Assembly (NCBI GenBank): GCA_964019055.1
Contig: OZ025208.1
Location: 15,556,957 to 15,620,956 of the forward strand
From: Anthopleura xanthogrammica
Lineage: Eukaryota > Cnidaria > Anthozoa > Actiniaria > Actiniidae
Direction of reading: 5' to 3'
Length of the DNA: 64,000 nt
Under the pieces are notes generated by a model, which saw only the letters and a program-made list of their open reading frames with translations, had not been told where the DNA came from and did not search any database. Positions 850-47,100 of the stretch are shown one piece after another; within the stretch, counting starts at the first letter, position 1, and each line of letters begins with the position of its first letter. Position numbers and translations under genes: made by a program.

Positions 850-856
850 GCATAAT

Positions 857-1400
857 CACAGGGAGCCCAACTTAGATATAAGTAAAAGGTGAAAATAAAA
901 TCGGGAAAAAATCGACTTTAATTTTTTTTTTTAATTCCAGGTCAAGATAATGTCCTCTATAATACGATCAAGCAAAAAAAATCCGTAAAAAAATGCGCGC
1001 GCCTTTGTTTTCCTATAAGCCAGTTCGTGCACATGCGATTTTATCCCAAATTTTGTTTAATTAAAAACAAAAAAAGATGAGAAATTTGGGATAAAATCGC
1101 ACGCGCACTGAAAACGATTCTTAAACTTTCGACTGGCAAGCTTATATAATTCCCCTATGGTATCCTATGTGTGGATATATTGAGACAAAAATAATCCACA
1201 CATAGGATACCATAGAGAAATTATAAAGAAAACAAAGAGGCGCGCGAAAAAAGTGTTCTAGTACATTTTTTACGGATTGTTTATCTCGTTCGTATCATAG
1301 AGGACATTATCTTGACCTGGAATTTAAAAAAAATATTAAAGTCGATTTCTCCCCGATTTTATTTTCACCTTTTACTTTTATCTAAATTGGGATCCCTGTG
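857..1400. mobile_element. Foldback/MITE element, 7-bp TSD gcataat
   Basis: The element has very long terminal inverted repeats (roughly 857-985 against 1272-1400) starting CACAGGGAGCCCAACTTAGA on the left and CACAGGGATCCCAATTTAGA on the right. It is flanked by a perfect 7-bp direct repeat, gcataat (850-856 and 1401-1407). Inside are further nested inverted pairs: a 'tttgggataaaatcgca' pair at about 1035-1105, a 'tatcctatgtgtgga' pair at about 1160-1215, and a 'gcgcgcctttgttttc' pair at about 995-1240. No transposase ORF is present, so it is non-autonomous. It has the same ends and TSD length as the element at 34985-35758. Confidence 0.85.
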
Positions 1401-1407
1401 GCATAAT

Positions 1408-10935: not shown

Positions 10936-11365
10936 AAAAAGTGATTTTAAAATGTAAATTACTTTTATTTTTATTTTTTTGTTTCGTTTTCATGGTTCTT
11001 TAATTTGAATTTTTAATACTGTCGCTTTTAAAGTTCTCTTCGCCTGGCTGATCATTGAAGTATCATGAACAGTTTCATTTAAATTTAGGCGGGAAAAAGA
11101 CGCGCTCGTGTCTCGAGTCTGACGCATGCGCAGGCGGTTAACCTAGGTTTGCCTTGATTGTGATCCAAGGCCAAAGAGGAACCCGAGAAGATCTGAATAT
11201 TATATGTAATTCTTACTAAGAACTAACACATGGGAATGAATGGTTCGAATTAAGGTAGATATATAGAAGAGGTCATTTTATAGAATCATAGTTTTCAATT
11301 TAAGAAAAATATTTTTTTAATATATATTAGAAAAGCTAATGGCGGAGCTATTTCAAAAAAGATAG

Positions 11366-12023
11366 GTGCATGTTGCATGTTGCATGTTGCATGTTGCATG
11401 TTGCATGTTGCATGTTGCATGTTGCATGTTGCATGTTGCATGTTGCATGTTGCATGTTGCATGTTGCATGTTGCATGTTGCATGTTGCATGTTGCATGTT
11501 GCATGTTGCATGTTGCATGTTGCATGTTGCATGTTGCATGTTGCATGTTGCATGTTGCATGTTGCATGTTGCATGTTGCATGTTGCATGTTGCATGTTGC
11601 ATGTTGCATGTTGCATGTTGCATGTTGCATGTTGCATGTTGCATGTTGCATGTTGCATGTTGCATGTTGCATGTTGCATGTTGCATGTTGCATGTTGCAT
11701 GTTGCATGTTGCATGTTGCATGTTGCATGTTGCATGTTGCATGTTGCATGTTGCATGTTGCATGTTGCATGTTGCATGTTGCATGTTGCATGTTGCATGT
11801 TGCATGTTGCATGTTGCATGTTGCATGTTGCATGTTGCATGTTGCATGTTGCATGTTGCATGTTGCATGTTGCATGTTGCATGTTGCATGTTGCATGTTG
11901 CATGTTGCATGTTGCATGTTGCATGTTGCATGTTGCATGTTGCATGTTGCATGTTGCATGTTGCATGTTGCATGTTGCATGTTGCATGTTGCATGTTGCA
12001 TGTTGCATGTTGCATGTTGCATG
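11366..12023. repeat. Heptanucleotide satellite (TGTTGCA)n, ~94 copies
   Basis: A perfect 7-bp tandem repeat about 657 bp long. Seven is coprime to three, so all six frames stay open as heptapeptide repeats; none of these ORFs is a gene. On the plus strand every junction creates TGCATG, a recognition motif of RBFOX-type RNA-binding proteins if transcribed. Confidence 0.98.
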
Positions 12024-12159
12024 CCAAGCTTGAAATAACGTCAGTGCAGAAGATATTATGCCGGAAAAACCTGCAGACAAAGTTTAGGGAAATTCCATAT
12101 TGTTGATTGTCGTGATGGCCTTTAGCTGATTGCATTTCATTTACCAATGAATCCTTCGT

Positions 12160-12305
12160 TTGTACATGACGTCATAGCCGCCATGTTGGAAGAATTTGAC
12201 AAAAGATTTTTCAATGAATTATTTTGTTATACCTTCCAACATGACGAACATGACTTTTGTTATTTTACTCCCTTGGGAATTATGATGATTGTAAACCAAG
12301 AATAC
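12160..12305. repeat. Dispersed element related to both 33-bp and 63-bp satellites
   Basis: The left half, GCCGCCATGTTGGAAG followed by TTTGACAAAAGA, matches the 33-bp unit at 40.2-41.2 kb. The right half, CCAACATGACG followed by TTATTTTACTCCCTTGGGAA and 'attgtaaacc', resembles the 63-bp unit at 6.2-6.9 kb. Confidence 0.6.
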
Positions 12306-21465: not shown

Positions 21466-22113
21466 AAAGGAGTCGGGAAATCGACGGTCGTGAATCAAAT
21501 CCTTGGTAAAAATGTCTTCCCGGTAAGCACTTCAATGGAAGGTGTCACGCGAGGAAGACGAACATCAGAAGAAGAGACTGAAAAAGAGACCAGAGATGAT
21601 GAAGGAAAAGTGGAATACAAGATCAAGATTATCGATACAGTTGGGGTACGAGATAAAGTGGCACAGAGACGTAAAAAGATTGTGACTGAAATCAAAGATT
21701 ATTTATCAAGGAAAGCTCCCGAAGGAGTAAATCTTTTCTTGTTTATCATAAGGAAAGGGATCTTTTCTGAAGAAGAAAAAGAGACTTTTGACAGCATTAT
21801 CGGTAGCTTCAAGGAAAACGTGAAACAAATATCTGCTTTGATCGTCACTGGCTGTGAAGGACTTAGCGAAGAAGGTCGAGAGAAAGAAATAAGCGCAATA
21901 AAAGAAGGTCAAAAAACAAAATCTTTGACTGAGTTTATGGGCAAAGGTGTCCATGCAGTTGGTTTCCCAAATGTTGAAGATGCTCTAGCAGAATTGAAGG
22001 AAGTGTATGAAGAAGGAATCCAAAGAGACCGTGAAAAATTAAGGCAGGTTGTTTTGGGTTCTGGATTGACGATTTCGCAGCAAGATATCTTTAAACGAAA
22101 GAGGTTTTTTTAG
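21466..22113 (+). pseudogene. GIMAP/AIG1-like GTPase, 5'-truncated
   Basis: The readable frame begins KGVGKSTVVNQILGKNVFPV and continues through the DTVG (G3) and TGCEG (G4-like) motifs to a stop at 22113. It ends ...DIFKRKRFF with no CaaX box or membrane segment. Compared with its paralogues the beginning is lost: an in-frame TGA (21463-21465) lies two codons before Gly-Val-Gly-Lys-Ser, so the first half of the GxxxxGKS P-loop and the first beta strand are missing. The first ATG in frame lies inside the former switch-proximal region. It is the only plus-strand member of the cluster. Upstream sequence is not homologous to the paralogues, which points to a rearranged 5' end rather than a point mutation. 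An undetected upstream exon is possible but no acceptor fits. Confidence 0.75.
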
Positions 22114-22684: not shown

Positions 22685-23416
22685 TTACAGAATAGTGCAC
22701 ATTCTCAATTTTTCCCAGAAGGGTTTTTTAAACATTTCATTGCCTAGATAAATTGTGCTTGAAGAAATCACTAGATCTATAAGTTCTTTTTTATCTCTTT
22801 TCATTGTTTGTTTGTAAGTTTCTTTCAATTGTGGAAGCATCGCCTCAAGATCTGGAAAGCCGACAGTCAAGATTCCCTTGCCCATAATTTTTGCATATTG
22901 TTTTGTCAATTCATTTGTCTTGAAAGATTTAACAAGTTCACATCGGCCTTTATCACAAAGACTTTCACAATGAGTTAGCACCAAAGCCGATGCCCCTGAA
23001 ATTTCCTTCTCAAAGTTCTTTTTCAAGAAATCAAAAGCTTCTCTCTCCTCATTTGTAAAGCGAATTCCGGATCCACCACTAAAAACAAACAAGACCAAGT
23101 GAACTCCTTCTGGTGCTTTCACTTGGAAAAAGTTTTTGATTTGCTCCAAGACCTTAGGGTTCTTAATTGTTTTATTGGTGCCAGAAAATCCTGCAGTATC
23201 GATGATTCTAAATGTGAAATCCCTCTCTTCCTGGTTTGGGTTATCTACTTCTACTTCAATGTATTGAACATCTTCTGTCACACTCTGGTAATCCCGCCGA
23301 ACTTGAAAACTCTGGCCATAATTTGAGAATTGGTTAGCGACAGTGGACTTGCCTGCGCCAGACTTGCCAACTATTACGACAATTCTCTTCTGACGAATTG
23401 TTTCTATTCCCGCCAT
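22685..23416 (-). CDS. GIMAP/AIG1-like GTPase with CaaX box (CTIL)
   Basis: Intact 243-residue ORF. It has a P-loop GKSGAGKS (17-24), G3 motif DTAG (73-76) and a G4-like position THCES (148-152), where typical small GTPases have N/TKxD. Length and motif order fit the GIMAP/AIG1 family of septin-related GTPases that assemble on membranes and act in immunity and cell survival. The last four residues, CTIL, form a CaaX box; a final Leu favours geranylgeranylation, so the protein is probably membrane-anchored. Closest in the window is 33439-34149, which has the same SGxGKST and CTIL features. The start ATG is the first in frame and is followed almost at once by the first beta strand. No introns in the ORF. 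Function in this organism is inferred from family only. Confidence 0.85.
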   Translation of the reverse strand: MAGIETIRQKRIVVIVGKSGAGKSTVANQFSNYGQSFQVRRDYQSVTEDVQYIEVEVDNPNQEERDFTFRIIDTAGFSGTNKTIKNPKVLEQIKNFFQVKAPEGVHLVLFVFSGGSGIRFTNEEREAFDFLKKNFEKEISGASALVLTHCESLCDKGRCELVKSFKTNELTKQYAKIMGKGILTVGFPDLEAMLPQLKETYKQTMKRDKKELIDLVISSSTIYLGNEMFKKPFWEKLRMCTIL

Positions 23417-23786
23417 ATTAAACTATATTCGTAATCAGTACCGAAGATGTCTAAGGAGAGTACAGATGAAATTATGTCGAACTTAAAAAGAACTTCAACT
23501 TATAGAGTCTTGATGACTAAAACCTGACTAACTGGTTTGACTTAGTCCCCGTATGTATTTTTCCAAAGCTGAATGCTTGATTGCCTTTAAGAAAAAAGCG
23601 TCGCTGCCCAAACCTTTGTTGATCATGAGAGAAACCAGTTGAACCGGTATTGGAATCTAAATCAGTATCAACTCCACACGGCCCACTGATATAACAAATG
23701 ACATTTACTTTTACATCTTCTTGGTGAGTCCCAGTATATTTATAAAAGAACGAAATGATGCTTCTTTTAATGTGAAAAATAAAGAT

Positions 23787-24482
23787 CTAATTACTTGTGA
23801 ACCATTTCTGGAACAAGGACTTTGGTTCTTCAATGACCTCCTGTGGCAAAGTCATTATTCCAGAACTTAAAACAACTGATCTAAGTTCCTCAGCATCATT
23901 TTTGATTCCTTCTTCGTACTCTTTCCTTAGGTTATCAACACTAGGGAATCCAACTGGATAAACATCTTTCCCCATGAAGTTAACCAATGATTCTGTTACT
24001 TGATCGTTTCTTGTTTCATAAACGATTTGTTTACGATCTTTCTTGTCAAGTCCTTCACAGCCAGTGATGATCAAAGCAGATATTTTTTTCACCTTTTTCT
24101 TGAAACTTGCAATTGCCTCATGGAAATTCTTTTCTTTTTCTTCAGAAAAGTCCCTTTTCCTTATGACAAACAAGAAAAGGTTTACTCCTTCGGGAGCTTT
24201 CCTTGTTAAATAATCTTTTACTTCATCCACAATTTTTTTACTTCTCTGTGCCGCTTCATCTTGTACCCCAACTGTATCGATAATCTTGATCTTGTATGCC
24301 ACTTTTCCTTCATCATCTTTGGTCTCTATTTCAGTCTCTTCTTCTGAGGTTCGTATGCGTCTTAAAGTGCTTACCGGGAAGACATTCTTACCAAGGATTT
24401 GATTCACCACCGTCGATTTCCCGACTCCTGTCCGACCAAGAACTACCAAGTTACGCTTCTCTGTGATTGTAAACTGGTCCAT
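23787..24482 (-). CDS. GIMAP/AIG1-like GTPase without visible membrane anchor
   Basis: Intact 231-residue ORF. It has a P-loop GRTGVGKS (16-23) followed by VVNQILGKNVFPVST, G3 motif DTVG (69-72) and a G4-like TGCEG. It belongs to the subgroup shared with 21466, 28557 and 31142, in which the segment after the P-loop is almost identical. Here the conserved SMEGVTRGRRT switch region is shortened to a basic Leu-Arg-Arg-Ile-Arg stretch, which may alter nucleotide handling. The C-terminus (...FQKWFTSN) has neither a CaaX box nor a hydrophobic segment, unlike its neighbours, so it may be soluble or may dimerise with anchored paralogues (inference). Confidence 0.85.
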   Translation of the reverse strand: MDQFTITEKRNLVVLGRTGVGKSTVVNQILGKNVFPVSTLRRIRTSEEETEIETKDDEGKVAYKIKIIDTVGVQDEAAQRSKKIVDEVKDYLTRKAPEGVNLFLFVIRKRDFSEEKEKNFHEAIASFKKKVKKISALIITGCEGLDKKDRKQIVYETRNDQVTESLVNFMGKDVYPVGFPSVDNLRKEYEEGIKNDAEELRSVVLSSGIMTLPQEVIEEPKSLFQKWFTSN

Positions 24483-26209
24483 TTTTTCTTAGTTAACTTA
24501 TGAAAACCTCACGCCGATCATGCAAATAGACTAGAGATGCAGAACTTTAAGCTTGTTTGCCTCAAATTAACTTTACGGTTCACGGAAAGACACACAAATC
24601 CCCGATGTACCGAATTTTAGCATGACGTCACGATCATCGCGCGCCCGCGATTCAGGCAGCGGTAAAATAAATAAGTATCCATAGCAACTAATTAAAAGCG
24701 GCTGGCCGTGCTGGCTGGCCGGCGATGAGCTGCGAAATGGTTTACCAAAATAAAGTGAAAAAATTGCTTGTTGTTTTTAACTTTGAATGGGATTTTTTTA
24801 TAATTATTTAGCTCAAATATCTACTTATATGAATGCCAAGGCCAAAGAAAAGGCCTCATCAACAATTTAATTCCAGCAATCAACCACCGAGTCAACCAAA
24901 AACAAAGAAATTACACGAAAATCACTCTCTTACGTCCGTTAATGTTCAGTGCGATCTTTGTTGCTGTTTGACTGTTTCGGCCGAAAACCAGCAATTGAAA
25001 CTTGATCTTGGCAAACAACGAGAGCTAGTAGATACCTGGAAACTCAGCTATGAAAAAGAGAAAGAAAAAAACATCGAAATTGGAAAAAGAAGTAGCCGGA
25101 CTACGAGAAGAATTACTATGCGTACGAGATAAGTATGCCAAAGTAGCAAACTTAAATTTACGAATTAGACTTAAAGATGAAGGAGAAACGTTGAAGGCCG
25201 ATATCAAAAACGAAAAAAGTAGAACAGTACAAAGAGGCCATGACGTTCGTGGGGCAAGGGCAAGACTTACACGAGAAAAATAGGAGACAAAAAGTGACTT
25301 AATTTAAGCAACACTTTTAATCGAGGGGAAAACGGAAAAAAACACCAGAACAGTACAGTTTATGAGTTGTATCAGGTTTGCACAACATGCTGGGTTACTA
25401 TCCGACCAGAAAATGAGTTTGACAATTTATTTATTATTTACTACATTTTTCAACCGAGACCCTCGATCCCCCCAATTTCGTTGTTTCCCCTACATAACAA
25501 CGATAGCTGATTGGAACTTGCTTTTGGAGGAAGGCGACAAGTTCCTTTTAAAGCGATTTCTATCAACAACGGAATATGAGATTCATTTTTGGGATGATGA
25601 CAGTCACAAAAATCACGAAGATAGACATGTCTTCGGAGTTCATACCTGGCATCCAGGAAAGGGTCATCCAGTCAGATATGTTCTAGGCAACCTTCTTATT
25701 GCCAGTGGTTCAGGCAAAGACCAAGCAGATGCAGAGTATCATGTTGCCAGCAAAATATATGGGATGAAAAATGCTGGGGCATTAATTGGTGACAACGCCT
25801 CAACACAGTGTGGAACAAGAAATGGAATGGCAGCTATGTTAACAGCAAATTTCAAAAAGGAAGTTTTCTTTGTTGGGTGTTACCCACATGTGTTGAATAT
25901 TATCTTGAAGCGGGCAGCCTATGCTGGGTTTGGTTCGAAAGGGGACCAAACATCATTCAATGTCATGCAATTACATTACAAGGTAATACATTGAAATTAT
26001 TTGCCTTGTTTAGTATATTATTTTTTTTTATATAGACAACTACTGGACATGAGCAAGCAAATGCTATGATTGGCTACCCTACTAGTAGGCTATGGGCTCA
26101 TAAACCATGAGTGGAGAAAACTGGAGATTTTCAACAATGGATGACTATTTTGACTGAACTAGAGATAAAATCAAATGTTATATCTCTCATAATCCAATAT
26201 TTGTATATA

Positions 26210-28556: not shown

Positions 28557-29411
28557 TTAAAAAACTGATCCAAAATATTTGTTTAAGGCTGCTAGGCCTA
28601 AGTCTACATACTGTTTTACAAGTAAGAAAATTCCCCTGGTATATTTGGCTCCATAGGTAGCATCATATACCAGAAAAGCAACCCCAAGAACGAGAGCGGC
28701 AGAGACTAAGATTCGTCTACTTGTTATGCTTTCTTCAGGCTGCCAAGCAGTCATCACATCGGCACAATCAAAAATAAGTTTTCTAAGTTCCTCAGTATCC
28801 CTTTTCATTCCTTCTACGTACTCTTCTCTCAAGGATTGTTTTAAGTTATCAACGCTAGGAAATCCAACAGGATAAATACCTTTACCCATGGAGTCAGCAA
28901 AAGATTTTGTGTCTGGACCGTTTTTTATGGCTATTTTTGCGTCCTCTCGACCTTCATCGCTAAGTCCTTCACAGCCAGTGACGATCAAAGCAGATATGGC
29001 AGTTTGTTTGTTCTTGAACGCGGCCATGATGCTTTCAAATGTCTGCTTTTCTTCCTCAAAGAATACCCCTTTACGCATGACAAACAAGAAAAGATGCACA
29101 CCTTCGGGAGCTTTTCTAGATATAAAACCTTGGATTTCTTTCATGATCATTTCAGCATCTGTCTTTACATCTTGTAGACCAACTGTATCGATAATCTTGA
29201 TCTTGTATTCCACTTTTTCTTCATCATCTTTGGTCTCTATTTCAGTCTCTTCGTTACAGGTTCGTCTTCCTCGCGTGACACCTTCCATTGAAGTGCTTAC
29301 CGGCAAGACATTCTTACCAAGGATTTGATTCACCACCGTCGATTTCCCGACTCCTGTCGGGCCAAGAACTATTAAGTTACATTTTCTACTCCTTTTATTG
29401 GCCGCTTGATT
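28557..29411 (-). CDS. GIMAP/AIG1-like GTPase with C-terminal hydrophobic segment
   Basis: The open frame runs from 29411 (just after an in-frame TAA) to a stop at 28557. It has a complete P-loop GPTGVGKS, then VVNQILGKNVLPVSTSMEGV, DTVG and TGCEG. The C-terminus has a hydrophobic stretch (SAALVLGVAFLVYDA) suited to membrane insertion, so anchoring differs from the CaaX-type paralogues. No ATG precedes the P-loop in this frame: the sequence equivalent to the paralogue start reads ...AANKRSRKCNLIVLG. The first in-frame ATG (29336) lies inside the P-loop helix and would give a dead GTPase. Either a short upstream exon supplies the start (an 'atcaag' acceptor-like site is at about 29405) or the 5' end is broken. 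Strong DNA identity with 31142-31831 implies recent duplication. Confidence 0.75.
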   Translation of the reverse strand, partial: NQAANKRSRKCNLIVLGPTGVGKSTVVNQILGKNVLPVSTSMEGVTRGRRTCNEETEIETKDDEEKVEYKIKIIDTVGLQDVKTDAEMIMKEIQGFISRKAPEGVHLFLFVMRKGVFFEEEKQTFESIMAAFKNKQTAISALIVTGCEGLSDEGREDAKIAIKNGPDTKSFADSMGKGIYPVGFPSVDNLKQSLREEYVEGMKRDTEELRKLIFDCADVMTAWQPEESITSRRILVSAALVLGVAFLVYDATYGAKYTRGIFLLVKQYVDLGLAALNKYFGSVF

Positions 29412-31141: not shown

Positions 31142-31831
31142 CTAAAACAGTGAACAACAATCAAAAAGTCGGTTATTATTCCCCTCAAAAGCATTAGCAC
31201 AATCCAAAACAAGTTTTCTTAGTTCTTGAGCATCATGTTTCATCCCTTCTTCGTACTCTTCTCTCAAGGATGGTTTTAGGTTATCAACACTAGGAAATCC
31301 AACAGGATAAATACCTTTACCCATGGAGTCAGCAAACGTTTTCGTATTTGGACCGCCTTTTATGGCTATTTTTGCGTCCTCTCGACCTTCATCGCTAAGT
31401 CCTTCACAGCCAGTGACGATCAAAGCAGATATGGCAGTTTGTTTGTTCTTGAACCCGGCCATGATGCTTTCAAATGCCTCTTTTTCTTTCTGAGAAAAAA
31501 CCCCTTTACGCATGACAAACAAGATAAGATGTACACTTTTTAACTCTTTTCTAGACATAAAACCTTTAATTTCTCCCAAGATCAATTTAACATCTATCTT
31601 TACATCTTGTAGACCAACTGTATCGATAATCTTGATCTTGTATTCCACTTCTTCCTTAGCATCTTTGGTCTCTATTTCAGTCTCTTCTTCTGAGGTTCTT
31701 CTTCCTCGCGTGACACCTTCCATTGAAGTGCTTACCGGGAAGACATTCTTACCAAGGATTTGATTCACCACCGTCGATTTCCCGACTCCTGTCGGGCCAA
31801 GAACTATTAAGCTGCGTTTTTGTAGCTCCAT
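31142..31831 (-). CDS. GIMAP/AIG1-like GTPase with CaaX box (CSLF)
   Basis: Intact 229-residue ORF starting MELQKRSLIVLG. P-loop GPTGVGKS (12-19), a full SMEGVTRGRRT segment, G3 motif DTVG (70-73) and a G4-like TGCEG. It ends ...RLFDCCSLF: the last four residues, CSLF, fit a CaaX prenylation box, and the neighbouring cysteine could be acylated (inference). This is the best reference copy for the subgroup and shares long near-identical stretches with 28557-29411 and 21466-22113. The start is unambiguous because it sits ten residues before the first beta strand. Family role: membrane-associated, septin-like GTPase. Confidence 0.87.
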   Translation of the reverse strand: MELQKRSLIVLGPTGVGKSTVVNQILGKNVFPVSTSMEGVTRGRRTSEEETEIETKDAKEEVEYKIKIIDTVGLQDVKIDVKLILGEIKGFMSRKELKSVHLILFVMRKGVFSQKEKEAFESIMAGFKNKQTAISALIVTGCEGLSDEGREDAKIAIKGGPNTKTFADSMGKGIYPVGFPSVDNLKPSLREEYEEGMKHDAQELRKLVLDCANAFEGNNNRLFDCCSLF

Positions 31832-32545
31832 TTCTTGCTTAGTTTCAATACACTATAGATTAAAAGTCGAGAGAAAAGCGCGGAATACTCGATTGGGCGG
31901 TGTCAAATTACATCAGAACTTTAGTGACCCTAGCAGTTCGCTACTGCACGCTTTACTGATTTAGAAAGGACTGTCAGAGACTTGTCAATGAAATGGTCTG
32001 ACTGGTTTATTCCAAAACAAGTGAATGTAAAAACATAAAATATTTGATCACTTTTCGTCGACCATTTCTTTTTCATTAGACATGCATGGATATTGTTGCA
32101 AAAATTGAAAACTTTTTCATCTGAATGCAGAATTCCTCAATATTGTCATTCAACCAGTTTGAACTGGTTTCAACAGGTTAAAAAGAACCGTCAAGAAAAT
32201 AAAGATATATAAGTGGTATTTAGCGGAGAACGTCTCGTAATTTTACTGGACTACTCAGTCCTTCGTCAAATATCATATCTACTGTATAGAATTTTTTTGG
32301 CCTTTAATCTTACGAACGAGTATAGCAGGTCACTTTAATTGATGGCAACTCTATTTTCCATATACCAAACCATATACCCCAGAGAAGGGTTTTGCATATA
32401 TCCATATCTTAATGACTCGGTCTGCAAAATACTGATTCCTCGTATTCAGAATTACTTTGTAAATAATCATGGCAAAAAGAAAATGACACTTTTCCTTGCA
32501 CAGTTTGAATGGTATTAGTAATCACACGTATCGTTTTCACTTCTT
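31832..32545. other. Intergenic, no gene
   Basis: Upstream flank of the CSLF GTPase gene. Contains 'ggactactcagtccttcgtc' near 32250-32270, typical retroelement-end debris. Nothing else identified. Confidence 0.35.
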
Positions 32546-33438: not shown

Positions 33439-34149
33439 TTAAAGAATAGTACATTTCTCCTGCAAAGTTTCCCAAAATGTTGGTTGAAAAATTTCCGCAC
33501 CTAAACGCTCTTCACTGGAAGACTTCACGACTTCCAACAACACATTTCTATCAGTCTGTATGTCTTCCTTGTAAGCATCTCGCAGTTTTGGTTTCATTTT
33601 CTTGATATCTGGAAATCCAACTGGGTAGAATCCTTTTTTCATGAACTCTGCAATTGGTTTTGACTTTTTATTGGCTTTAAACTCTTCAACGAATCTTTGC
33701 CGACCTTCATCATCACTTTCATCACAGTTTGTGATCACCAAGGCAGAAAACTGTGGAATGCTGTCTTGAAAGTGGTTGGTAAGAATCTTGAAGGCTTCTT
33801 CTTCCTCTTTCGTGAAGCGCCCTCTTCTGAATACAAAGATGATTAAGTTCAACCCTTCGCTTAAATTGGCTTGTAAATAAGTCTTCATTTTATTCAAAAT
33901 TTCTTTGTTGCTGAGATTCTGATCGAAATAACCAATGGTGTCGATAACCTTGAAGTGATATTCCTTCTTTTCTGCTTTTATTTTACATTCCTTGTGACAA
34001 CAAGATGAATCTGCTTTATCATCATCATGATACTCTTTAACTGTAAAGGCATCAGGACTATTTAGAAGCTGGTTGCAAACTGTACTCTTTCCTGTTCCAC
34101 TTTTACCAACAACAAGAACATTTCGTCTTTCGATTTGTCTTGCTGCCAT
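33439..34149 (-). CDS. GIMAP/AIG1-like GTPase with CaaX box (CTIL)
   Basis: Intact 236-residue ORF starting MAARQIERRNVLVVGKSG. P-loop GKSGTGKS (15-22), G3 motif DTIG and a G4-like TNCDES. It ends CTIL, a CaaX box predicted to be geranylgeranylated. It groups with 22685-23416 by the Gly-Lys-Ser-Gly P-loop, the CTIL tail and the conserved FW-E-L near the C-terminus. These two form a second subgroup interleaved with the VVNQILGKN subgroup. It is the last member on this side of the window. Confidence 0.86.
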   Translation of the reverse strand: MAARQIERRNVLVVGKSGTGKSTVCNQLLNSPDAFTVKEYHDDDKADSSCCHKECKIKAEKKEYHFKVIDTIGYFDQNLSNKEILNKMKTYLQANLSEGLNLIIFVFRRGRFTKEEEEAFKILTNHFQDSIPQFSALVITNCDESDDEGRQRFVEEFKANKKSKPIAEFMKKGFYPVGFPDIKKMKPKLRDAYKEDIQTDRNVLLEVVKSSSEERLGAEIFQPTFWETLQEKCTIL

Positions 34150-34288
34150 TTTGTCCTATTTTCAGCGCTTTGAAACGCATCTGGTTATAGTCGAAACACA
34201 TTCAATAACCTAACGCCAAAGGTGAGCGTCGTGTACAGGCAAGTACTGATTCAAACCATAGACTGGAAGCAATGACGTGAAACGCATA

Positions 34289-34743: not shown

Positions 34744-34984
34744 TACCAAATTCGGCAATTTGTTCAAGATAAATATTTATTATTAGCAGCAACACGCTTC
34801 TAAAATACGATTTTTTCTATTTATGGTGAAGAAGGAGGATATGTTTTACTATAGGTAAAAGAATATAGTTAGATCTGTATAATTTCTATATTAAATGTAA
34901 TAAATAGAAATGAAGCGCAGTGCGAATTTGCATGTAACCCGTCACATTTATTAGCTAACATTAGCGCGTATTGTAAAGTTGCAC

Positions 34985-35758
34985 CACAGGGAGCCCACAG
35001 CCACTGGTAGAATCAGTGATTAGAATAAAATCTATCATGCGTATAATGCACGTGCTAGCTCCCGCACGAGCTTGGCGCCTGATTGGTTGCAGTTCAAGTC
35101 TGAATGAATTATTAGCTGCTAACGTTGCTAGCGTAGAATATAATGACAAGGGATGAAACTTCAAGAATTTTTCGTTCTATCTGCGCCTCGAGTAAGGGGG
35201 GACGGAAGCGGAAATGAACAATAGCACCGGAAATGAGCGTCTTCCGTTTAAAGCTTTGGAAGATAGTAATGACAATGAAATTCCTTCAAAATCGTTATTA
35301 TAGATACAGAAAAAAGTTATTTTAGATGCAGAACGGAAGTAAAAACATCGATTTTGATGACTACCTGTCAGATTTATAAGATTCCATTTTACTTCTGTCC
35401 CCCCTTACTCGAGGCGCAGATAGAACGAAAACAAGATTTTAATTTGTTGCCATTTTTTCAAGACATAAGTCCATGCTGATTTTTTCTGTCCACACAGAAC
35501 GTTAGACAAACGTTAACTTTCCAAGTATCAGAATTTTGATGTTTAAAGCTTAAAAGACATTACATGATTTTTTAAAAGCAATTTTATTCGAGGGGTCCAT
35601 TTGAAGTTTCATCCCTTGTCATTATATTCTACGCTAGCAACGTTAGCAGCTGATAATTTATTCAGACTTGAAGCTCGTGCGGGAGCTAGCACGTGCATTT
35701 ACGCATGATAGATTTTGTTCTAATCACTGATTCTACCAGTGGCTGTGGGCTCCCTGTG
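34985..35758. mobile_element. Foldback element, 7-bp TSD gttgcac
   Basis: Ends CACAGGGAGCCCACAGCCAC and its inverse, flanked by the perfect 7-bp direct repeat gttgcac (34978-34984 and 35759-35765). TIRs are about 190 bp. Inside lies a second foldback (about 35167-35432) whose arms carry CTGCGCCTCGAGTAAGGGGG. No transposase. Same terminal sequence and TSD length as 857-1400. Confidence 0.88.
35167..35432. mobile_element. Foldback nested inside the larger foldback
   Basis: Left arm TTTTCGTTCTATCTGCGCCT and inverted right arm AGGCGCAGATAGAACGAAAA, each continuing into CGAGTAAGGGGGGAC or its complement. It may be a separate element inserted into, or an integral part of, the 34985-35758 element. 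Confidence 0.75.
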
Positions 35759-35765
35759 GTTGCAC

Positions 35766-38700
35766 CTAAATAGCGGTCTTTTACCACAAGATACGATTAT
35801 CAGTCCGTATATATGCCACAAAGCTATACAGTAGTCGAAGTAAATCAGTAAAGGAGATTCGAATACATTTGATTTTGATGATTTTCTTTCTCACAACTTT
35901 GTGTAACCATGTAGCGTATATTTCTAATACCACTTATATTTATTCAAAATAAGTTATGAAAACTGATCTATAAATTGTAAAGTTTCCATAGAATATAAAT
36001 TATACTTTATTCCAGACATTTTGGTGTAGATTTGATGCTGATCGACCTTAATGATCGGGAACAGTGTACAATTGAAGTTTTCTGTTTATAAATTCGACAC
36101 GTACAAAACATACAATAAATTTTTGTCAACATTTCGTATTTAGGGTATTTCTTCTAGTTACAAAGCCTTGATTTCTATATCACTTTAGGATGCATTTGTC
36201 GTTTAATTGTTTGATATAATGCTACCAAATCAACTAGTCTAGCTCTAAAGGTAAAGGGATAATTGTAGTTGGAAGTTTGCTGACTTATTTTCGACAAGCG
36301 AAATCTCATTTGCATTTGTTATAGCTTTGTGAAAAAAAATGTAAGGGACTGTTAAGGCTATTTTTCAGAAGAGCAAAGAATATTTTACAAAAATGTAAGT
36401 CCACGATATCTTATCTATGGTATACAAATTCTTTGCTGCGTTTTTGAAAGAAATCGGGATGTTTTGTGTCTAGAAATCAAAGTTTTTTTATCGGATGTGT
36501 GCTTACTCCTGTTTTTTTAATTCAAAAAGGTTACTTTAGATTTTTTGTTGCTGCTTGAAATTTTGTGAATATTGAATAGCAACTACATGACTCGATAACT
36601 TGTTAAAAAGAAACATATTTTAATATTATATTATATTATATTATATTATTATATATTATAATAGGGCCTTGTTTATGCTTTAAATTTTCTACATTAGTCA
36701 ATTTTGTCCTTCTTATATATAAATCCTATATTTATAGAGCAAGAAGTAAGTGTTGTCAGCTGAATTTAAAAGGCTTCAAAGCATATCTCCAATATTATAT
36801 ACAAATTGAATATAATATCGCTGTAAAAATAATAATATGCATATCCATCTGACAAAATATAACAACTTAAAAAAGCGTTAAACATTATGTGAAATTTAAA
36901 CTTTTATTAATTTGTAATTGATCTCATTACATGTGAAAGTTAAATAAAGGCGGGGGGGGGGGGGGGGAGAAAGAAACAAGCATTAAGATAAGAATAGCGC
37001 GTGAAATATTTAGAAGGTATGGATTTAAAAAGTGATACTTTTTCTCGACAAATAACTGCATGCTTGCAAGCGCATTCTCGAGCCCATGAATGTTGTCGAA
37101 ATCCTTTCAAATTAGATTTTACATTGTGAACTAGATATATAACTATGTAAAGAGGCTAAAGCAATGACGTCAATATATTGTTTATAGCAGGCGCTACACG
37201 TTTTACTATAAGTCGATCGTGTTTTTACTGAGTTGTTTGTATGTTTGCTTATTACAGAAAGATTATGCGATCTGTGAACATATGAAATTCATTTGTGATA
37301 AATATCTTATAAGTATTTCATGTTTAAATAGTAAATTTCACCGCCTGAAAAGAATAGCATGCTGAGTAATTACCAGGCCCCACGCGGTTATTATTAATTA
37401 TAGCTATGTATAATGCAAATTACTTATCACATAAACAACAAAAGTTGTGATTACGTTATTTCGTATCGATATCTATCATTTTATGACATAAATAGTACAC
37501 ATTTCATATTATCAAAAAAATCTTCCTTGTGACGCTATTGGGTGCCACCGCATTGCTTCCAGTCATAACAAGTCTGACCTGTTTATTTTGTTGTGAAAGG
37601 TCTTTGTGTTTGCGTAGGGGACGTTCTTAGGGTCGTCACGCAAAATTTCTCTCCCGAACGTCTGCTTGCTTGAGAAGAACATTTCTTTCCAATTGTTATC
37701 ACGAGGCAACTGAAATCTTTTAGACTTTTTTAGACTTTTTATTTCTTTACACACAAAAATTACAATATAGTGAAAGAACAAAGACAAAGTTGATATTTAC
37801 AATTTTATAAATATATAAATTTATAAATAACAAAAAAAAGAAAATATTGAAAGTGTGTGTGGTGACCAAAGTAGTGTAAACTTTCGAGTTGGTCACCACC
37901 TAAATAAATTCTTATAAATCGACTCATTGTTTCTCGAGGAGCCGTCTAAAACCGTCGATAGAAAATTTCACGCCTACACGAATTAAATGCTACATCGATG
38001 CTGTTAGTCTAAGTTTTAGAAATCTAAGTAACGATGTGTGTATGCGCGATAGCGAAAACAATAGACCCGCGGCAGGAGCAGCCGTTATTTAGGAGTGGAG
38101 TCGAAGTGTAAATTTTAAAATTTTTATTTTATTTTTTTATTTTTATAAAATTTTTAAATTTTTAAACTAGCAAATAAACTAGTTAGAGCTGCACGTCGGT
38201 GTATAAAGCATTTATGTTGGGAATGCTATAGCGTAACATAAAAATAACTTTACTCAACTGCCGTTTCAGACGTCACTCCTTTATTTATATCGTTCCTGTC
38301 ATTTAGTTTTGTGTTGAAAGTTTTACAGTAAAAAGGTCAAATACCAGGCTTCTGGATTTTGGAATCTTAATGATCATTCGTTGATTTTTGGGACTGTTGG
38401 AAAGGAATGTTCTGCTCAAGTACATGGCATCCGCTGAAGACCTGAGAAGAACCTTCCGAGACACCCACAATCAAAACAGAGGTCCGACACTCAAAGCAAA
38501 GGTACAAAACTCAAAAATTCAAATTCTCAGGATTGGAAACCCAAAACTAAAACAACTGGGAGTTAAAAGGCCGTGGCTCTGCTGTGAAATGATATCCAAA
38601 CTTCTTATAATACTAAACTGAAAACATTTTACTAATGTCTGGATAATACTTGACGGATCTAAGGTTTGAGTGAATTTCCAATAACCAAGGAAAATGTGAC

Positions 38701-44100: not shown

Positions 44101-47100
44101 AGTTTGTTTGGTCTCTCCCTTGATTCCAGGGTTTGAGGGTAGAACCCAGTTTTCCTCCCTCTGCAAAACTTAACATGCTAAATTCCAATTCAATCTTTTA
44201 GTTAGCTGCACCCTAACTTTGATCAGTCCAGACATTGTTTCAGGGTTTGATCTGTGAGTTAGCCGTGCCCTGACTTAGATCACCCCAGAGGTTATTTCTG
44301 GGTTAAATCTGTGAGTTAGCCGTGCCCTGACTTAGATCAGCCCAGAGGTTGTTTCAGGGTTTAATCTGTGAGTTAGCCATGCCCTGGCTTAGGTCAGCCC
44401 AGAGGTTGGTTCAGGGTTTGATCTGTGAGTTAGCCATGCCCTGACTTAGATCAGTCCATAGGTTGTTTCAGGGTTAAATCTGTGAGTTAGCCATGCCCTG
44501 ACTTAGATCAGTCCATAGGTTGTTTCAGGGTTAAATCTGTGAGTTAGCCATGCCCTGACTTAGATCAGTCCATAGGTTGTTTCAGGGTTAAATCTGTGAG
44601 TTAGCCGTGCCCTGACTTAGATCAGCCCTAACATGGTTTCAGGGTTAAATCTGTGAGTTTTCCGTGCTATGACTTAGATCAGCCCAGAGGTTGTTTCAGG
44701 GTTGGATCTATGAGTTAGCCGTACCCTGACTTAGATCAGCCCAGAGGTTGTTTCAAACTACCACTAGAATTTCTTTTGATGTTGCTTGGACCTCCTCTCC
44801 AGTTGACCACCCCACACAGTGGACTGCTACACAGACCATCCCTTGAATCAAGTTTTTTTCTCCAGTTATCTGGTTTTCCTCCCTCCACAAAACCAAACAT
44901 GACTTCAAACAATAAATAAATAAGTAAGTTTGCCATCTGTTAATAACAAACTAACATACCTAAATGGTAGCTGCCAATTTCCTGAGCCAGATTACTTGCT
45001 CTCTTCTTTGTCTCGACTGAAGAATTCTCTGTTCCCATGTAACAGGTTACAAAGATTCTGTTCGCAAATTCTTGAGGGTCTGTCGGGATGTAATTACTGA
45101 AAGAAAATACCATAGAAAATATGACTCTGCTCCCTTCATTGCTCATTTATTCATCCATCCATCCCCTCCACCCATCCATCCCTGTCCATCCATCCATCCA
45201 TCCACACATCTACCCACCCATCCATCCATCCATCCATCCCTCCCTGTCCATCTATTCACCCATCCATTAACCCCTGTCAATCCATCCATCCACCCATCCC
45301 TGTCCATCTATTCAACCATCCATCCATTCATCCATCCACCCATCCCTGTCTATCCATCCATCCATCCACCATCACTTCTTTTCCCATTAGTTAATTCAAT
45401 AGTTCAATCCTTCACTCATTATTTCATTTGTTCATTCATTCATTCATTCACCCATCCATCCATCCATCCATCCATCCATCCATCCATCCATCCATCCATC
45501 CATCCATCCATCCATCCATCCATCCATCCATCCATCCATCCATCCATCCATCCATCCATCCATCCATCCATCCATCCATCCATCCATCCATCCATCCATC
45601 CATCCATCCATCCATCCATCCATCCATCCATCCATCCATCCATCCATCCATCCATCCATCCATCCATCCATCCATCCATCCATCCATCCATCCATCCATC
45701 CATCCATCCATCCATCCATCCATCCATCCATCCATCCATCCATCCATCCATCCATCCATCCATCCATCCATCCATCCATCCATCCATCCATCCATCCATC
45801 CATCCATCCATCCATCCATCCATCCATCCATCCATCCATCCATCCATCCATCCATCCATCCATCCATCCATCCATCCATCCATCCATCCATCCATCCATC
45901 CATCCATCCATCCATCCATCCATCCATCCATCCATCCATCCATCCATCCATTCATTCATTCATTCATCACAGAATTTCTTACTCACCTATCATGAACAAT
46001 CCTCCGTGCCTCCTCCAACACTTGCTGGTTTCCATTCTTTACAGCCTGACAAACCAAGTGACACATTGATGCAACAATACAAGCTGTTGACGAACTGTCT
46101 ATACCTGCAAAAAATATAAAGATAACCTTATTAGATGATAATGATTATCATTAATGTGGTGTACCGGTAGTTGATCAAGAAGACAAGACAGATGAGCATA
46201 ACAATGTTATGTAAATGGTGAATTGTCAAGTTTTCAGTATGATTCATCAAAGTGTGCTTACTTCAATGAAAAAAAGAGAAAATTTAGTTGTGTGGATTGC
46301 CTGTGGTACAGTATATTAACACCAACAAGCTTATATTGCTTCAAGGCAATGATATTTCGGCTAATATGGATTACTCATGAGAATAAAACATATGAGGGAT
46401 GGCGAAGCACATGCACATTTTAAAGTGGGGGGGGGGGGGGGGGGTCGAAATAAAAAATAGAAAAAAGAAATTAGTACCTCCACTTAAAGGCAAGAAAAAG
46501 CCAGCCTGTCCACTTCTCCTTAGATAATCCCACAACCAACAGGCAGGACCAAGGCTGATCTCTTCTTCGGCAGTGTGGTAATGAAATTTGATTGGTTGAG
46601 AGATTGGGATAGTAAGATCGTCATCCTTAGTTACGCAAAACTCTGTCTTGATGCGTGGATAGCAGGGGGTCAAGGATTCAGCTGCACGGCTATATGTAGG
46701 TGAAGAAGAACGATAGGTGCGCACATCTTCTAAATCTAATGTTGCAGTCACAACTTCAACTTCTTGTAATGAGAACTGTGATCCTTGTGCGACAACCTCA
46801 CCATTGATTATTATCATAGAACAACCATCATAGTATACTCTCTCAGCATCACAGCCACGCAAATTGGAATACATGTAGATACCACCACCCTGGAAAGTGA
46901 TATAAAGTATACGTCCATTGGTTAGTAAGTTGAAGTCTGTCCTAATCAAAACTGGAGGACATGAATTACGATGATTTCGTCTACGCATAGTTTCATCTAC
47001 TGAAGTTCGCCTACGTATCATAAATTCACCTACTGAAGTTTGCCCACGTATAAAATACTTGTACGTTGTAAAACCTATCTATGAAGTGTGAGACAGTAAA

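Follow-up and report, generated by a model that had tools for sequence, protein, structure and literature searches.

Introduction

Foldback-like transposons that duplicate 7 bp of their target are known from Galileo of Drosophila, which belongs to the P superfamily (PMC4168063). Host proteins have also been connected with this superfamily, as IRBP18/Xrp1 of Drosophila has been linked to the repair that follows the excision of P, and the IRBP heterodimer binds P-element DNA according to a title cited in the same source (PMC7776569). In placozoans, the terminal repeats of Mutator elements contain the chromatin loop-anchor motif, for which the authors consider either that an architectural protein came to recognise the motif or else that integration was targeted (PMC12221973).

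Here we analyse a window of 64,000 nucleotides (the whole stretch of Anthopleura xanthogrammica DNA under study) together with the genome from which it comes, and add two foldback families with 7-bp duplications, the form known from Galileo. The larger point is that the tip of these elements exceeds its reversed control about 360-fold, is mostly partner-less among the listed sites and is present in other kinds of mobile elements. A first-pass annotation of the window had proposed a transposon family with 7-bp duplications and a distinct transposase; the transposon and the 7-bp rule are right, the transposase is unproven, and what makes the system interesting is that its tip is reused throughout the genome.

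Boundaries and architecture of the two window copies

Copy 1 reads gcataat, then CACAGGGAGCCCA...TGGGATCCCTGTG, then gcataat, and copy 2 reads gttgcac, then CACAGGGAGCCCA...TGGGCTCCCTGTG, then gttgcac, both terminal ends of either copy corresponding to CACAGGGA(G/T)CCCA (Table 1). The first-pass annotation had described copy 1 as having long terminal inverted repeats and a perfect gcataat duplication, and copy 2 as having the same 13-base ends, an unrelated body and a perfect 7-bp duplication of its own. All of this is borne out: the arms of copy 1 are 135 nt long and 87% complementary, both duplications are exact when read directly, and a BLAST comparison of the two copies aligns the 13-bp tips (E 0.011) and nothing else above chance, all remaining rows having E values of at least 0.51. 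A single family comprising both copies is thereby ruled out. Both copies are foldback elements of the non-autonomous cut-and-paste kind, and they represent at least two sequence families, A and B, with one tip.

Table 1. Positions of the two foldback elements and their parts in the window
Feature	Position	Strand	Remarks
Left target-site duplication of copy 1, gcataat	850..856	.	read directly
Foldback element of family A (copy 1), 544 bp	857..1400	+	longest stop-to-stop frame 61 aa
Left tip of copy 1, CACAGGGAGCCCA	857..869	+	
Left inverted-repeat arm of copy 1, 135 nt	857..991	+	87% complementary to 1266-1400
Nested hairpin of copy 1	1027..1108	.	arms 1027-1053 and 1082-1108, 93%
Second nested hairpin of copy 1	1145..1225	.	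arms 1145-1176 and 1194-1225, 94%
Right inverted-repeat arm of copy 1, 135 nt	1266..1400	-	
Right tip of copy 1, CACAGGGATCCCA, T variant	1388..1400	-	
Right target-site duplication of copy 1, gcataat	1401..1407	.	
Left target-site duplication of copy 2, gttgcac	34978..34984	.	
Foldback element of family B (copy 2), 774 bp	34985..35758	+	longest stop-to-stop frame 75 aa
Left arm (inverted repeat) of copy 2, about 180 bp, starts with tip CACAGGGAGCCCA	34985..35164	+	
Right inverted-repeat arm of copy 2, 158 bp, starts with tip CACAGGGAGCCCA	35601..35758	-	
Right target-site duplication of copy 2, gttgcac	35759..35765	.	held once in the joined empty-site query
Copy 2 with the 130-bp flanks used in the empty-site search	34855..35895	.	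flanks are a piece of an abundant dispersed repeat

Several other features of the window were observed in passing. Copy 2 adjoins a cluster of frames that by eye resemble one another and appear GTPase-like (21466-22113, 22685-23422, 23787-24488, 28557-29411, 31142-31852 and 33439-34155), and both frames put to Pfam from this cluster (21466-22110 and 28560-29411) match AIG1 (PF04548). Frames between 25308 and 28356 resemble a decayed hAT transposase by eye, and the two that were scanned have no Pfam match. Like frames in like order suggest, again by eye, a possible local duplication (41182-42063/53545-54081, 46371-47078/56621-57277 and 50464-50910/58315-58755), within which 50467-50910 matches carbon-nitrogen hydrolase (PF00795) above the cut-off and 46374-47078 falls narrowly below it. 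At 11284-12171 and 45021-46119 there are long tandem repeats of simple sequence in which several frames stay open.

Copy number, target-site duplications and empty sites

The genome comprises 290 Mb in 125 contigs. With copy 1 as a query, 40 of 1,569 candidates were scored and gave at least 135 match rows; with copy 2, 40 of 336 were scored and gave at least 204. The longest element pairs, as judged from match positions in the family A listing, span about 1.9 kb, and the locus covering most of one such pair (L008) has frames of up to 181 aa that look repetitive. The elements thus far described are short, lack a long frame, end in inverted repeats, are flanked by target duplications and are multicopy, as are MITEs and other non-autonomous foldback elements, and for copy 2 empty sites with a single target were found as well.

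Thirty-two copies (22 of family B and ten of family A) were tabulated for their duplications, having been picked because both ends appeared among the listed matches; the two window copies are among them, and a pair that shares its flanks (L149/L150) is counted twice. The duplication is exactly 7 bp long in 25 of the 32 (B 18, A 7) and 7 bp with one mismatch in five (B 3, A 2), the remaining two being a 6-bp duplication in family B and an 8-bp duplication in family A. Such a tabulation had been put forward by the first-pass annotation as a check on its reading, and the dominance of 7 bp upholds it. Among sampled loci outside the table, exact 7-bp pairs were found at L009, L028, L063, L065, L107 and L115, 7-bp pairs with one mismatch at L004, L007 and L038, and an 8-bp pair at L002, while inverted tip pairs have no clear duplication at L011, L023, L026, L077, L094, L123, L125, L186 and L187. 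By eye, the target at L028 (C1:1630700-1632000) seems to lie inside an inverted repeat, with GCAGCTCAATTTGGAGGACAAAAC and its near complement on either side.

The family A target is palindromic, C occupying the last position in 11 of 14 readings; these readings are seven sites taken on both strands, and G in the first position follows by construction. No clear GTNNNAC target was seen in family B (17 sites).

To look for empty sites, we joined the flanks of each of ten elements around one target copy and ran them as a single query, of which only the flanks of copy 2 are represented among the scored places, those of the other nine elements, including copy 1, falling outside the scored list. All 40 scored places (of 4,201 candidates) align unbroken across the junction over 258-260 letters with 98-99% identity. 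These alignments imply that gttgcac was single before the insertion, that the boundaries given for copy 2 are correct and that copy 2 inserted into an abundant dispersed repeat. The possibility that the 7-bp repeats are part of the element, which empty sites were expected to reveal, is thereby answered for copy 2, as its joined flanks, with a single gttgcac, align at 40 of 40 scored places. Divergence from the consensus in family B amounts to 1.3-5.3% (20 aligned copies), and this low value suggests that the family moved recently.

Candidate transposases

The explanation that we consider likely as a whole is that families A and B are short foldback cut-and-paste transposons without a transposase of their own, for which a transposase acting in trans would accept ends starting with CACAGGVANCCCA and would cut the target with a 7-bp stagger; this transposase may belong to the P superfamily and be Galileo-like. 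The tips, the long inverted repeats, the copy number, the 7-bp duplications, the empty sites of copy 2 and the low divergence of family B are the directly observed parts of this explanation. Taken separately, the assignment of the mobiliser to the P superfamily seems somewhat probable given the duplication length, the CA tips, the foldback form and the palindromic target of family A.

P transposases are represented in the genome by 26 matches to PF21787, with PF21788 found in the same frame in five of eight frames scanned, and one of the P frames matches the solved Drosophila P transposase in phmmer (E 9.3e-12). Three P elements could be delimited, two of which have CATAGTTAATAGAGGG ends and exact 7-bp duplications (tcaagag and atttgac); the third, with a CAGAG end, is without a duplication. 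The two elements with CATAGTTAATAGAGGG ends (L055 and L051, on contigs C11 and C3) contain long open transposase frames. Their exact duplications indicate that the P transposases of this genome are able to make 7-bp cuts. Duplications of 7-8 bp are characteristic of the P superfamily, and the tabulated copies show exact 7 bp in 25 of 32 and exact 8 bp in one of 32. The P-like transposase suggested by the first-pass annotation stands as the best lead, since two of the three P elements delimited have exact 7-bp duplications and since Galileo, of the same superfamily, is foldback-like and makes 7-bp duplications too (PMC4168063). A full-length copy with a transposase between the present ends, which the same annotation had envisaged, did not turn up at the 15 loci scanned, which take in 16 of the 26 PF21787 matches, and CACAGGVANCCCA within one mismatch was absent from all of them (stretches of 3.4 to 9.4 kb, with only 3.4 kb at four loci and limited flanks at most of the 15). 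The tips of the P elements themselves (CATAG, CAGAG) are unlike CACAGGG.

Tips of the hAT type likewise start with CA, and hAT targets are likewise palindromic. Together with the lack of these tips among the scanned P loci, this speaks for a non-P transposase that makes 7-bp cuts, whether hAT-like, Dada-like or of an undescribed superfamily, although we regard such a mobiliser as unlikely given that two of the three P elements examined in the same genome make 7-bp duplications. Members of hAT leave an 8-bp duplication, a length seen exactly in one of the 32 tabulated copies. Dada, which had been named beside P in the first-pass annotation, does make duplications of 6-7 bp, but its members Dada-U6 and Dada-U1 have no terminal inverted repeats and its insertions are described from small RNA genes (PMC3706591), whereas families A and B have arms of at least 135 nt, copy 2 lies in a dispersed repeat and the window holds no tRNA or Rfam RNA above threshold; Dada is disfavoured by the inverted repeats and the insertion site. 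KDZ was rejected, as it has only four matches and none of their loci carries the tip within one mismatch.

Genome-wide distribution of the tip motif

Across the 290 Mb of the genome there are 3,656 exact copies of the tip CACAGGGAKCCCA and four of the reversed pattern. For CACAGGVANCCCA there are 13,694 exact sites against 38 in the reversed control, and 29,156 against 1,873 when up to one mismatch is allowed, so that the sites with one mismatch (15,462, about 1,835 of them expected from the control) are about as numerous as the exact ones. The base preceding CACAGGVANCCCA is A or C in 11,309 of the 13,694 exact sites, where local composition predicts about half. Chance as the source of the tips is ruled out by the reversed-pattern control, and the first-pass judgement that a chance reading was improbable gains further from the exact 7-bp duplications of 25 of 32 copies and from the empty sites of copy 2.

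Most of the listed motifs are partner-less, which the first-pass annotation had not foreseen. Among the first 100 listed exact GGGAK sites, all on contig C1, 84 lack an exact inverted partner over a distance of 2.5 kb, and the other 16 make up eight convergent pairs inside that range. A sample of 115 distinct sites (C1, 0.1-15.8 Mb) leans towards unpaired sites because six close convergent pairs were left out of it, a choice of which the figure of 84 of 100 is free. Mates were sought in this sample mostly over about 200 bp inward, and over 1.5 kb for the first 30 places; 22 sites have a mate (some without a duplication) and 93 have none in the stretch searched, these being 19 family A-like sites, four family B-like sites and 70 that are neither (37 G and 33 T). 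None of eight unpaired sites followed for 4.9 kb has a mate with a matching duplication; at one of them an inverted motif with one mismatch lies 718 bp away but lacks the duplication. Mate and duplication were also scored together for 72 sites, about half of which had only about 200 bp inward. Seven sites scored no higher than 4, where the duplication-swap control gave 0.27, and the seven are recognisable elements. Diverged mates of otherwise ordinary elements are therefore not supported by this control as an account of the unpaired motifs.

The unpaired motifs lie in varied surroundings. For ten of them, the motif and roughly 100 bp of flank on each side served as the query (40 of 191 candidates scored), and nine gave no further copy of the motif in its context, seven of these being without any other match. 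The tenth, L010, lies in a dispersed repeat that carries the motif along, and L021 (a simple-repeat flank) and L016 (one 68-bp match) have partial matches outside the motif. In another family, in which a hairpin is followed by CTAG, the motif lies just inside the 3' end, and two members (L194 and L201) agree through CTAGTT and diverge beyond it. An alignment that stops at a hairpin plus CTAG and then diverges is what a Helitron end is expected to give. The 34-base form of this Helitron-like end has 252 genomic matches, with none in the control. Its parts, as seen in L194 and L201 and at C1:50067-50100 and 251 others, are the motif, the hairpin ACGCTC-CAA-GAGCGT and CTAG, and a related copy at L065 has a hairpin with paired changes (ACACTC/GAGTGT). 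Direct arrays with 33-44 bp spacing are found at L012, L024 and L118, and C1:3661177-3661379 holds six tip motifs in one orientation at a spacing of exactly 38 bp. The inward 20 bases of 160 sites clustered into sequence-sharing groups and 84 singletons. By eye, tRNA-like GGTTCGATTCC stretches stand beside the tip motifs of L190 and L195, which are perhaps tRNA-derived SINEs, and L191 appears coding-like, from which it would follow that some motif matches have other reasons.

The motif was not reported among the matches listed in literature searches on 7-bp, foldback and P-like elements and on loop-anchor transposon motifs, and searches with its letter strings listed matches that, judged by their titles, are not about transposons; we do not claim that it is absent from print.

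Origin of the unpaired motifs

We hypothesize that the unpaired sites, which fit decayed pairs poorly, may better fit a host-protein site common to several mobile elements. The tip motif would then be also, or primarily, the site of a host DNA-binding protein, for instance of the multi-zinc-finger type, that would have over ten thousand sites in the genome, a possibility to which we give somewhat less than even weight. Unrelated transposons, the foldback elements among them, would have this site in their ends or close to them and may make use of the protein bound there, so that a host site adds to the transposon reading and does not replace it. Consistent with this are the excess of CACAGGVANCCCA over its control (13,694 against 38) with A or C before it in 11,309 cases, the 84 of 100 listed sites without a partner, the 70 of 115 sampled sites with neither a mate nor a family A or B interior, the eight of eight followed sites without a duplication-matched mate in 4.9 kb and the nine of ten without a second context copy (40 of 191 candidates scored). 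The motif moreover recurs in the Helitron-like 3' end, in another dispersed repeat (L010), in direct arrays and in apparently unique DNA. At the 33 unpaired T-variant sites the preceding base is C in 17, A in 15, G in one and T in none, and inward conservation is almost nil.

This site is nevertheless putative, and all letters examined for it come from contig C1. Groups of unpaired sites have about 30 bp of inward sequence in common, as transposon ends would, and at least one site (L191) is coding-like by eye. Promoter-like composition was rejected, no G+C or CpG peak being seen around 18 sampled sites, and so was an orientation like that of loop anchors, the clustering not being significant (82 sites, p 0.09).

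Alternatively, the unpaired motifs may be left over from numerous old families of transposons within this superfamily, having lost their other ends and having no present function, which we think doubtful. In 89 unpaired sites, family A sites included, enrichment is seen for T at position -6, A at position -2 and C at position -1 (p 1.2e-3, 3.7e-6 and 3.8e-10), and these bases match the palindromic target of family A. When family A and B sites are removed, however, T at -6, a base that would be the mark of an insertion target, is no longer flagged (16/33 and 14/36), C at -1 persisting (17/33 and 17/36). A at -1, found in 28 of 69 unpaired sites, occurs in none of the 14 readings of family A but in nine of 34 of family B. 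Old remains would also agree with the near equality of one-mismatch and exact sites, as copies about 8% diverged would give it, yet intact 13-mers should then keep recognisable mates, which seven of 72 sites have against 0.27 in the control, and the motif is present in other repeat classes too. One locus of the kind that such decay would leave is L067 (C1:3461468-3461868), where a 35-bp insert retains 27 bp of a family A end and 8 bp (TCCCTGTG) of the other between two exact 7-bp duplications, ctcatac; it looks like an excision footprint.

Returning to a host-protein site, we tentatively propose in its more specific form that the outer 13-14 bp (A or C, then CACAGGVANCCCA) may constitute the site of an architectural or regulatory protein of the host, which would be present at more than ten thousand places and be carried by the foldback elements, the Helitron-like family and other repeats. 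If this were true, the host protein would be involved in transposition, or else its sites would be spread by the transposons, as may be compared with the placozoan Mutator. The IRBP heterodimer reportedly binds the outer terminal repeat of the P element. The cases of IRBP18/Xrp1 and of the placozoan Mutator make a host factor plausible for the present motif and prove nothing.

Comparison with known systems

Galileo is the closest published analogue that we found. As described in PMC4168063, it resembles families A and B in its long inverted repeats and in its 7-bp duplications with a few of 8 bp, and its palindromic target (GTANTAC, GTATTAC) is similar to that of family A (seven sites) and not to that of family B (17 sites). 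Its subfamilies with almost identical terminal 40 bp have been taken as moved by one transposase (PMC2775673). The present elements differ from Galileo in that no transposase-coding copy was found (15 P loci scanned), in arms of 135-180 bp as compared with up to 1.2 kb and in the bodies of families A and B, which do not align. A genome-wide spread of the tip, as seen here, is not mentioned in the available text of the two accounts of Galileo (PMC4168063, PMC2775673).

The P elements with CATAGTTAATAGAGGG ends of the same genome share with families A and B the 7-bp duplications (both elements examined), the CA tips and the inverted repeats, but have another tip sequence and code for a transposase. 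Zebrafish Pdre2 and the Drosophila P element likewise have terminal inverted repeats, and internally deleted relatives in zebrafish are gene-less, as families A and B are, whereas the duplications of Pdre2 and of the Drosophila P element are 8 bp long and the Pdre2 tip is CATACCTGTCAAC (PMC10983969, PMC7776569). Dada shares duplications of 6-7 bp with families A and B and differs from them in that Dada-U6 and Dada-U1 have no terminal inverted repeats and insert into small RNA genes (PMC3706591).

The placozoan Mutator resembles the present tip in that a motif of transposon ends occurs at many genomic sites; it is a Mutator element studied with Micro-C and chromatin data (PMC12221973), whereas the present case concerns elements with 7-bp duplications and is known from sequence counts. 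Should a host protein bind the tip, these sea anemone families would, independently of the placozoan case, exemplify transposon ends that are genome-wide binding sites.
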